DNA from: an uncultured cyanobacterium
Lineage (GTDB): Bacteria; Cyanobacteriota; Cyanobacteriia; PCC-6307; Cyanobiaceae
Direction of reading: 5' to 3'
DNA: 64,000 nucleotides
Assembly (NCBI GenBank): GCA_903858015.1
Contig: CAIOGZ010000032.1
Span: forward strand, 1 to 64,000
The translations under genes and the position numbers were made by a program. Below the pieces are notes generated by a model. The model was not told where the DNA came from. It was given only the letters and a program-made list of their open reading frames with translations, and did no database searches. Below, in pieces: positions 50,078-57,970 of the stretch (its first letter is position 1; each line of letters begins with the position of its first letter).

Positions 50078-50545
50078 TCACTTGAGCAGGGCGCTGAGTG
50101 GACCGATCAGGCCGGAGATCGCCGAGCCGGCCGTGGCGGCGGTGGGGGTGGAGCCCTTGGCGAAGGTGCTCAGCACCAGGTTGGCGGCGGTGTTGATCAG
50201 GGGCCACTTGTCGCCGGCGATCGGCTGGATCACCGGAGCGGCGGTGTTCCAGAGCAGCTGGAAGCCCCCCATCGAGGCGATGGCCCCGGCCAGATTGCCA
50301 GATTTCACCTGGCCTTCGCTCTTGTTGAGCAGGTCGAGAACGGGGCTGACGGCCGTGCTCAGCGCCGCATTGCCGGTGGCGCTGGCGGCCGTTTTGGCGG
50401 CATCACCGGTGGCGCTGGCGGCATCCTTGGCGGCTTGGCCCGCATCGCGGGCGACTTCCTGGGTGCCGGAGCAGCCGCTGAGGGCCAGGGCGGAGATCGC
50501 GGCTGCGGCGATCAGGGAACGGCGAACAACGCGGATCGGGCGCAT
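50078..50545 (-). CDS. Small alanine-rich lipoprotein, paralogue A
   Basis: A 155-residue protein starting MRPIRVVRR with a signal segment and lipobox LALSGC (Cys25), so it is probably a membrane-anchored lipoprotein. The mature part starts with an Ala/Asp/Lys-rich helix (ARDAGQAAKDAASATGDAAK), then VSPVLDLLNKSE, LLWNTAAPVI, and ends GLIGPLSALLK. It shares VxPVLxxLNxxE, [LF]xxLWxTAAPV and GLIGPLxALL with the next gene, so the two are paralogues. I do not recognise a functional family. It has its own terminator. No Shine-Dalgarno is visible before the ATG at 50545. Confidence 0.8.
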   Translation of the reverse strand: MRPIRVVRRSLIAAAAISALALSGCSGTQEVARDAGQAAKDAASATGDAAKTAASATGNAALSTAVSPVLDLLNKSEGQVKSGNLAGAIASMGGFQLLWNTAAPVIQPIAGDKWPLINTAANLVLSTFAKGSTPTAATAGSAISGLIGPLSALLK

Positions 50546-50843: not shown

Positions 50844-51323
50844 TCAGCTGAGCAGAGCCTTGAGGGGGCCGATCAGGCCGCCGAGGGCCGTCAGGGCGTT
50901 GTCCTTGGTGGGGGCGGTTTCGCCACCGAAGGTTTTGACCACCAGGTTCACGCCCGTGTTGATCAGGCCGTAGTTGTCACCAGCGGCCAGCTTGACCACG
51001 GGGGCGGCGGTATCCCACAGACCCTTGAACTTGGCGAAGGCGTTGGTGGCGGCGGGGATGTTGTCGGCCTTCACCTCCTTCTCGGCGGTGTTCAGCACGT
51101 TCAGCACTGGGGTCAGCACGTTCTTGAGCTGTTCGTTGCCGGTGACCTCGGCGGCGGTCTTGGCCACCTTCACCACGGTGCGGGCGGCATCTTTGGCATC
51201 GCTGGAGATGATGCCGGAGCAGGCGGCCAGGTTCATCATCAGCACGAGTGCCAGACCAACCATGGCCAGGCGGCGCAGGGGGGCCAGCCGGGTGCGCAGG
51301 GTGGTCATCCAGGAAGCAGTCAT
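50844..51323 (-). CDS. Small lipoprotein, paralogue B
   Basis: A 159-residue protein with a basic n-region, a hydrophobic core and the lipobox NLAAC (Cys35). The mature part is helical: AKDAARTVVKVAKTAAEVTG, then VLTPVLNVLNTAE, FKGLWDTAAPVVKLAAGDNYG, and a C-terminus GLIGPLKALLS. The last segments match the neighbouring paralogue at 50078-50545 in order and spacing. Function is not recognised. The W-[DN]-T-A-A-P-V core suggests a helical ligand-binding bundle, but this is a guess. The ATG at 51323 is used; a second Met six residues in is possible. Confidence 0.8.
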   Translation of the reverse strand: MTASWMTTLRTRLAPLRRLAMVGLALVLMMNLAACSGIISSDAKDAARTVVKVAKTAAEVTGNEQLKNVLTPVLNVLNTAEKEVKADNIPAATNAFAKFKGLWDTAAPVVKLAAGDNYGLINTGVNLVVKTFGGETAPTKDNALTALGGLIGPLKALLS

Positions 51324-55477: not shown

Positions 55478-55578
55478 GGGGCTGGGCCGCTGCCAGCGCC
55501 CTGAAGGCCTGCTCCCCTGGCAGCGCTGGTATTGAGATCCAAGCGAATCGGGGCCTGGATGGGGCGCCATTAATGGAT

Positions 55579-55605
55579 TTAGCACTCGCTAACTCTGAGT
55601 GCTAA
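55579..55605 (+). promoter_or_regulatory. Perfect CIRCE element (HrcA operator)
   Basis: TTAGCACTC-N9-GAGTGCTAA matches the CIRCE consensus at all 18 positions. The dyad extends to perfect 12-bp arms (GATTTAGCACTC / GAGTGCTAAATC, 55576-55608). It lies 93 nt upstream of the ATG at 55698. CIRCE is bound by the heat-shock repressor HrcA, normally upstream of groESL or dnaK operons. Confidence 0.97.
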
Positions 55606-55681
55606 ATCAACAGCAGCGTGACGGATTGTTTGTGGTGAACAGACTGCTGATCAGGCCTGATTACGGTTAGATCCCCTTTCC

Positions 55682-55688
55682 AAGGAGG
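55682..55688 (+). promoter_or_regulatory. Strong Shine-Dalgarno of the CIRCE-controlled gene
   Basis: AAGGAGG ends nine nt before the ATG at 55698. It is the best ribosome binding site seen in this window and fixes the start. Confidence 0.85.
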
Positions 55689-55697
55689 TCAGCAGGC

Positions 55698-56084
55698 ATG
55701 GTCTATCTCCTTCAATTCTGTGGTTTATCGGATCCACTCCAGCTCTTCTATTTGGAGCAGCGCAGCCTGGCACTCCCGCCCCGGTCTGCCGCCGGCTCCA
55801 CCGCTTCAGACACCGCTGCCAATCCCGCTGGGCCTGCCTACGGCGGCTTTCGACCCTTCCAGCTCGACCATGTCCTGGAATGGGCGCTCGAAACGGCCCG
55901 GGGTCGTTGCTGGGATGGTGAGGCGATCCAGCGCACCGTGCTGGATGGCTGGTTGGAGCGGGCCGACTTGATCCGGCATTGGCAGCTGCGCTTGCGCCAG
56001 GAGCCGGCTGATCGCCTGCTGGTGGCCGGGATCGGCACCCGCAGCGACTGGGATCAGCAGTGCGAAGCCTTGCTGCGGGCTTGA
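55698..56084 (+). CDS. Uncharacterised 128-residue protein under a CIRCE element
   Basis: The protein starts MVYLLQFCGLSDPLQLFYLE, then has a small-residue-rich linker (residues about 28-50, Ala/Ser/Pro) and a helical C-terminal half with GGFRPFQLDHVLEWALETAR, WDGEAIQRTVLDGWLER and IRHWQLRLRQEPADRLLVAG. No signal peptide or membrane segment is apparent, so it is probably cytosolic. I recognise no family. A perfect CIRCE upstream plus a strong Shine-Dalgarno implies HrcA-repressed, heat-inducible expression. It is a single-gene unit: the next gene is convergent and starts its stop codon 16 nt away. Codon usage looks like its neighbours. Confidence 0.85.
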   Translation: MVYLLQFCGLSDPLQLFYLEQRSLALPPRSAAGSTASDTAANPAGPAYGGFRPFQLDHVLEWALETARGRCWDGEAIQRTVLDGWLERADLIRHWQLRLRQEPADRLLVAGIGTRSDWDQQCEALLRA

Positions 56085-56100: not shown

Positions 56101-56778
56101 TCATCCCTGGGCCAGGCTGTGCCATAGCCAGGCCACCGCCAGGGGCACCGTGAGGTTGTCGAGGCCCCTAAGCGCCACCTGTTCCACGAGGGCGGCAGCG
56201 GCGCCGATGGCCACCAAGGCGAGCGGAGCCGGCACCGGCAAGCCGGCGGCGCTGCCCAGGCTGGCCAGTCCCAGCAGAACCGCGGCGCTGATGATCGCCA
56301 TCGTGGCTGTTCCGGCCAGGGAGCGCCGCTGGCCGAGGATCTGCCAGCTGGGGGAGCTGACCAGGGGCCCCACCAGGCCGGCCAGGCCGTCGCCAAGGGC
56401 CATGACCAGCACGCCAGCCGCCACGGTGAGCGGTTGCAGCGGCCACCAGAGCAGCAGCAGCAGGGTGATCGAGGCGCCGTAGGCGATCGTGCCGTAACTG
56501 GGGCGGTCGATGTCTTCGATGCTGGGCAGCAGCCGGCGGCGGTGGTTGATCGCGGCCAACAGGGTGACGAAGGCGGCCGCCGGAATCGCGATCCGTCGGT
56601 CGATCTGGAGGGCCCAGGCGATCAGCACCACCGGCCCGGCTCCGATGTGCACGAGCTTGCGGCTTGCTTCTCCCCAGCTACTCCAGCGGCGGCGCAGCGC
56701 CAAGGCCAGGCCGGCCAGCAAGGCGAGCCAGGCCAGCACCGCCGCGATGCCAACCAGCTGCTGCCACCACCAGCCCAT
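56101..56778 (-). CDS. Phytol kinase-like CTP-dependent polyprenol kinase (VTE5 family)
   Basis: A 225-residue polytopic membrane protein with the family motifs in order: SRKLVHIGAGPVVLIAWALQ, RPSYGTIAYGASITLLLL, GDGLAGLVG, the RRSLAGTATM motif of the CTP-dependent dolichol/phytol kinase group, and VEQVALRGLDNLTVPLAVA near the C-terminus. Plant VTE5 and the Synechocystis homologue phosphorylate phytol released from chlorophyll for tocopherol and chlorophyll salvage. The ATG at 56778 follows the sigma factor stop by five nt, so it is probably translated from the sigma factor mRNA. Confidence 0.85.
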   Translation of the reverse strand: MGWWWQQLVGIAAVLAWLALLAGLALALRRRWSSWGEASRKLVHIGAGPVVLIAWALQIDRRIAIPAAAFVTLLAAINHRRRLLPSIEDIDRPSYGTIAYGASITLLLLLWWPLQPLTVAAGVLVMALGDGLAGLVGPLVSSPSWQILGQRRSLAGTATMAIISAAVLLGLASLGSAAGLPVPAPLALVAIGAAAALVEQVALRGLDNLTVPLAVAWLWHSLAQG

Positions 56779-56783
56779 GCGGC

Positions 56784-57851
56784 TCAGGCCGCCTGCTGCA
56801 GGGTCGAGCTCATCATCCGCAGCTTCAGGATTGCCTTGGCCTCGAGCTGGCGCACCCGCTCCCGCGAGACGTTGATCTGCCGACCGATTTCGGCCAGGGT
56901 GAGCGGCTCACTGCCCTCTAAGCCGAAGCGCAGCCGCAGGATCTTCTGTTCGCGATCATTGAGCTGGGCGAGCCAGTTGCCGAGGTGCTCCTTCTGGATG
57001 TGGCGATCCATCGAGTCGAAGTGCTCGTTGCTGGCGGGATCGGCGATCAGTTCGCCCAGGGTGCTGCGGTCCTCATCGCCGCGGGCATGGGCGTCGAGGG
57101 AGGCGCAGGGGGCGCTTTGGGCCATCAGCTCCTCCAGTTCCTCGGGGCTGGTGCCAAGGGCGTGGGCCAGTTCGAGTCGGTTGGGTTGGCGCCCGAGACG
57201 GTGCGAGAGCTCCCGGGTGACCCGCCGCATCTTTGAGAGTTTCTCGCTGATATGGATCGGCAGACGGATGGTGCGGGCGCTGTTGTCGATGGCGCGGGTC
57301 ATGCCCTGGCGGATCCACCAATAGGCATAGGTGGAAAACTTGTACCCCATCGCCGGATCGAATTTGTCGACCGCCCGCTCCAGCCCAATCGCCCCTTCCT
57401 GCACCAGATCGAGCAGTTCCAGACCCTGGTTTTGATATTTTTTGGCCACGCTCACCACCAACCGTAAGTTGGCGGCCATCATCCGGTCACGGGCGCGCTG
57501 GCCCATGCGAATCCGGCGCTGCTGCTGGGCCGTCCGCTGGGATGGCTCCAGGGCCTGGAGTTCCTTGCCGGCCTGCACATGGTGGGCAAGCTCGATTTCT
57601 TCGGCCGGCGTGAGTAGCGGCACCCGTCCGATCGTGCCGAGATACCAGCCGATCGAATCGGCGCTCAGTCGTCCGGCGGATTGAGCGATCGCCCCGCCCC
57701 GTCCTTTCGTCTCCCCCTTTCCTTTGCTCCCCCCTGGGCGGGGGGAACGGGCGCTTGCGGCATTGGCAAGGGCCTGCGGCAAAGGCTTCGCACCCTCGGA
57801 GCCGCCAAGGGCGGTCGTCCCGATCGATGCGGAATGCAGAGGTGTCCCCAT
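56784..57851 (-). CDS. Group 2 RNA polymerase sigma-70 factor
   Basis: A 355-residue RpoD-like sigma factor without region 1.1. A low-complexity N-terminus (about 60 residues) precedes region 1.2 (DSIGWYLGTIGRVPLLTPAE). Region 2 has LRLVVSVAKKYQNQGLELLD, FSTYAYWWIRQGMTRA and IRLPIHISEKL; region 4 has LRLRFGLEG and the helix-turn-helix LTLAEIGRQINVSRERVRQL. These group 2 factors direct stress or dark responses in cyanobacteria. A GTG (57854) and an ATG (57851) are adjacent, both within range of GGAGG (spacing 6 and 9 nt); ATG is chosen. The gene lies 119 nt downstream of ppk and 5 nt upstream of the phytol kinase gene. Confidence 0.95.
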   Translation of the reverse strand: MGTPLHSASIGTTALGGSEGAKPLPQALANAASARSPRPGGSKGKGETKGRGGAIAQSAGRLSADSIGWYLGTIGRVPLLTPAEEIELAHHVQAGKELQALEPSQRTAQQQRRIRMGQRARDRMMAANLRLVVSVAKKYQNQGLELLDLVQEGAIGLERAVDKFDPAMGYKFSTYAYWWIRQGMTRAIDNSARTIRLPIHISEKLSKMRRVTRELSHRLGRQPNRLELAHALGTSPEELEELMAQSAPCASLDAHARGDEDRSTLGELIADPASNEHFDSMDRHIQKEHLGNWLAQLNDREQKILRLRFGLEGSEPLTLAEIGRQINVSRERVRQLEAKAILKLRMMSSTLQQAA

Positions 57852-57970
57852 CACCCCAGGCCTCCGAATTGAATTTGAGGCGAATTTAGCACCGTTCCAG
57901 CCAGACTGAGAGCCGAGCAGCTGGAGATTTTCGTATCAGATCTACCTCCTTTTGCCGCTTGTTGCGGTGG

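Follow-up and report, generated by a model that had tools for sequence, protein, structure and literature searches.

A perfect CIRCE operator in front of an unnamed cyanobacterial gene that looks like an unrecognised target of HrcA

The stretch of DNA analysed here, referred to as the window, is 64 kb long and carries at positions 55579-55605 the core of a CIRCE operator, the predicted binding site of HrcA, with two 9-bp arms around a 9-nt spacer (TTAGCACTC-GCTAACTCT-GAGTGCTAA), which matches the consensus TTAGCACTC-N9-GAGTGCTAA at 18 of 18 positions. As read from the sequence, the palindrome extends to perfect 12-bp arms, GATTTAGCACTC at 55576-55587 and GAGTGCTAAATC at 55597-55608 (55576-55608 overall), in agreement with an earlier note on this DNA that had described a perfect CIRCE with arms of this length. 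This is the sole match with three or fewer mismatches in the window, and none appeared in 100 shuffled sequences. On the forward strand a Shine-Dalgarno sequence, AAGGAGGT, read at 55682-55689, precedes the ATG at 55698 of an open reading frame of 128 codons that ends at 56084; a gene at 55698-56084 (+) encoding a 14.4-kDa member of a cyanobacterial protein family that has no name is indicated by this reading frame, its homologues and their dN/dS values. The earlier note had given the same succession of operator, Shine-Dalgarno sequence and 128-codon gene, but its distance of 93 nt needs correction, as the gap between the CIRCE core and the ATG is 92 nt, and that between the core and the Shine-Dalgarno sequence about 76 nt. 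A sigma-70 consensus promoter was sought for the gene and none was found. The upstream neighbor is a co-directional DAHP synthase gene; just 3' of the gene, on the opposite strand, lie a membrane-protein-like open reading frame with no Pfam match (56101-56778) and a gene of the sigma-70 family (56784-57854).

Homologues of the protein were found in 133 of 400 genomes of the taxonomic family to which the window belongs, presumably Cyanobiaceae, in 67 of 145 genomes drawn from across its class, and in 69 of 244 across the phylum, every one of the latter inside the same class. Their presence in dozens of genera rules out an orphan or lineage-specific gene, and the term "orphan gene" used in the earlier note has to be abandoned, together with the idea of a protein confined to picocyanobacteria: the family is widespread among cyanobacteria, and its link to CIRCE extends to Nostocales and several other families. 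The same note had assigned the protein to no known family, and here it was right, as the protein falls within no family of Pfam or NCBIfam. Searches of both collections with the window protein and 71 family members returned no match over the cut-off, the known chaperone families (GroEL, GroES, DnaK, Hsp20 and others) included, and the weak scattered matches, for example to C2c1_helical (E 2.7e-4, below its cut-off) and TetR_C_15, were rejected as evidence of a known domain. In most relatives from the window's family the N-terminus reads M-x-Y-LLQFCG-x-SDPLQLFYLEQ, and in distant relatives M-x-Y-x-F-x-x-x-GVSP-x-L-x-FF-x-x-QQ, while one glycine, an L-D pair and one tryptophan are invariant in 71 aligned sequences and two further tryptophans are nearly so. 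Pairwise dN/dS values of 0.04-0.23 indicate that the reading frame is under purifying selection. Phage-borne homologues were sought and none was found. Synechocystis sll0846 may be a member of the family.

Conservation of the CIRCE upstream of orthologues, which the earlier note had set as a test of its proposal, proved to be strong. Within the window's family, scanning of the 340 bp upstream of the start with up to five mismatches allowed revealed a CIRCE-like site in 51 of 55 loci, mostly 88-117 bp before the start, in which the arms hardly vary at positions 4-9, substitutions at the three outer positions are largely paired and the spacer is mostly unconstrained. Two of the four remaining loci (L015 and L029) lie on contigs that end too early upstream, and the other two (L048 and L051, in genomes G082 and G090) have enough upstream sequence, yet the site is absent; these two loci are related, and both genomes retain hrcA along with the gene, while the CIRCE was either lost from them or never present. 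Among named Nostocales genomes, which were retrieved with a Nostocales-centred query, all 80 homologues are preceded by a CIRCE, 78 of them at two or fewer mismatches and two at three. Such sites also stand upstream of homologues in families f19, f22, f29 and f37 and in single genomes of f2, f31 (one of five) and f34 (one of three), with weaker ones in f4, f12, f15 and f24. Control stretches elsewhere in the same loci gave 0 sites in 2160 and 1 in 686 at up to four mismatches. A chance palindrome is ruled out by these near-zero controls, the conservation upstream of homologues and the shuffled sequences.

The operator might in principle serve a neighboring gene or some other function instead of the gene that follows it, and roughly half of the Nostocales loci do have a divergent membrane-protein gene that shares the upstream region. 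Nevertheless, the upstream neighbor varies from clade to clade while the CIRCE stays with the gene at similar spacing, and the number of CIRCE sites in a genome follows the presence of the gene, which leaves this alternative very improbable. In many other families, the upstream regions of homologues were scanned and no CIRCE was found; taken together with L048 and L051, these cases indicate that the protein does not need CIRCE control everywhere. On the gene tree the CIRCE label changes about 14 times, with at least seven changes forced by well-supported branches, and both an ancestral link followed by losses and repeated gain are therefore possible. As individual observations, a homologue in genome G428 (L122) has no CIRCE, and in genome G057 of family f22 (L109, 1500-3200; L117) a TnpB-type insertion splits the homologue but leaves its perfect CIRCE in place; in another genome of the same genus the copy that follows the same CIRCE is intact.

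At the level of whole genomes CIRCE sites are very few. The 3.84-Mb genome of the window contains only two CIRCE-like sites at three or fewer mismatches, the one described above and that of groESL (TTGGCAGTC-N9-GAGTGCCAA, three mismatches, 132 nt ahead of groES). The window's contig itself carries no chaperonin gene, in line with the earlier note, which had seen no chaperone gene nearby; groESL is apparently split between contigs C45 and C47, and groEL2 is on C10. HrcA itself is encoded on another contig (PF01628 at C12:41994-42647, E 3.8e-28, over the cut-off). Among 16 gene-bearing genomes of the family scanned in full, 14 have exactly two CIRCE sites and two have one; groESL accounts for one site in all 16 and the homologue of the window gene for the second, the two exceptions being G158, where a more degenerate site was missed by the scan, and G082, where there is none. 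HrcA-positive genomes of the family with no detected copy of the gene have the groESL site alone in 19 of 20 cases and no site in one, and two genomes negative for both HrcA and the gene have no site at all. The view of the HrcA regulon as small and chaperone-centred, from which the earlier note had argued, is thus upheld by a CIRCE set that is otherwise chaperonin-only in the genomes scanned. Seven Nostocaceae genomes (f32) have three sites each, of which one belongs to the homologue of the window gene; of the two others, one was fetched per genome and proved to be groESL or groEL2. In other cyanobacteria, three CIRCE-like sites with two mismatches (L102, L105 and L107) have no groE gene or family member nearby and possibly occur by chance.

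The gene also tends to occur together with hrcA, which is present in 126 of the 133 gene-bearing genomes of the family versus 109 of the 267 others (Fisher test, uncorrected for shared ancestry; counts compiled by hand from the family-wide tables of homologue and HrcA searches). Of the seven gene-bearing genomes where hrcA is missing, six are assemblies less than 90% complete and the seventh is split into 570 contigs. This co-occurrence would suit a dedicated regulator of the circuit, a protein that modulates HrcA activity or the chaperonin cycle by feedback, but it is confounded by shared ancestry, many homologues elsewhere stand without a CIRCE, and many HrcA-positive genomes do without the gene, so that such a role is improbable. 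In fact, about 40% of the HrcA-positive family genomes at 90% completeness have no copy, and the gene is therefore dispensable to the HrcA system.

The conserved CIRCE, the two-site set shared with groESL and the hrcA gene in the same genome make the window gene look like an unrecognised HrcA target and, judged by its sequence, it very probably belongs to the cyanobacterial heat-shock regulon, where it has been overlooked. The proposal in the earlier note of an undescribed heat-shock or GroEL-linked factor is thus supported in part. From what is established about HrcA and CIRCE (reviewed for cyanobacteria in PMC7760821) we expect a gene that is repressed during growth and induced with groESL upon heat or chaperonin overload, and on this basis we consider HrcA binding, repression and heat induction of the gene to be highly probable. 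During normal growth an HrcA dimer would bind the CIRCE at the promoter and keep the gene off; heat or another stress would inactivate HrcA and lift the repression or, alternatively, misfolded clients would occupy the GroEL that HrcA needs for its activity, and upon derepression together with groESL the 14.4-kDa protein would be made. The cyanobacterial CIRCE targets named in the papers found are groESL and groEL2 (PMC4227741, PMC2758279, PMC8400943, PMC5381637), and no mention of the present protein family was found in a literature search that subscription papers mostly lay beyond.

Comparison with these targets reveals both common and distinct features. Like the window gene, the groESL operon of the same genome has a CIRCE 5' of its first gene, the only other one in the genome; in contrast, that CIRCE is less perfect and is accompanied by a K-box. 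A scan with the K-box consensus placed this element beside the CIRCE at groESL of the window's genome and of ten relatives, exactly or with one mismatch, and detected none upstream of the window gene or of any of its 29 relatives. The monocistronic groEL2 resembles the window gene in being a single gene apart from groESL with a CIRCE and no K-box, an arrangement described in Stigonematales (PMC5381637), although the window protein is unrelated to GroEL and no CIRCE was found at groEL2 of the window's own genome. A further parallel is wcw_0502 of Waddlia with its homologues in Chlamydiota, also a clade-specific non-chaperone gene behind a conserved CIRCE; unlike the window gene, it belongs to another phylum and encodes a putative type III secretion effector, and its binding by HrcA was detected by ChIP-qPCR, whereas the window operator is a predicted one (PMC12038028).

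With regard to the protein, its calculated pI is 5.3, and the AlphaFold2 models, at pLDDT 83.6 for the window protein and 90.5 for a shorter relative whose alignment was deeper, show a compact three-stranded alpha/beta domain. The domain is small and acidic, its tryptophans are conserved, and an enzyme motif could not be recognised in it. Comparison with the PDB by Foldseek and VIA-align gave no convincing fold relative, and solved structures include no sequence relative; ThyX, chorismate mutase and methyltransferase matches were dismissed as fold relatives, their scores (E near 1 or higher, or Z no higher than 3.0) being judged meaningless.

The clades have no neighbor gene in common, and the proposed function therefore rests on regulation. 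We tentatively suggest that the protein assists the chaperonin arm of proteostasis, for example as an adaptor or holdase, or as a co-factor for GroEL or its clients; the narrower version, a hitherto undescribed factor under HrcA control that cooperates with GroEL/GroES or delivers specific clients to them, is somewhat more doubtful. No chaperone domain, fold match or conserved neighbor supports a chaperonin role, which is nonetheless the most likely single one, a stress function unrelated to the chaperonin being nearly as likely. In the latter case an HrcA-controlled gene would encode a general stress protein, for instance a protector of a photosynthetic or metabolic complex. In favor of this reading, no chaperone features were found and all phylum-wide matches fall within the window's class; moreover, outside two large clades the CIRCE is patchy though the protein is conserved, and the function is thus not tied to HrcA. 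On the other hand, all other CIRCE sites checked in the window's family belong to groESL and site number follows gene presence, and a general stress role may be regarded as possible but doubtful. As an overall explanation we favor, with a moderate degree of confidence, an HrcA-controlled heat-shock unit at 55576-56084 that encodes an accessory of the chaperonin arm. The gene would be a CIRCE target beyond the chaperonin genes, conserved from picocyanobacteria to the relatives of Nostoc and encoding an uncharacterised protein family, and possibly a component so far overlooked in the chaperonin system of organisms that are of central importance for carbon fixation.

Elsewhere in the window, two adjacent and similar small open reading frames on the reverse strand (50078-50545 and 50844-51323), for which no Pfam match was found, have N-termini with the lipobox-like motifs LSGCSG and NLAACSG and are possibly tandem paralogous lipoproteins.
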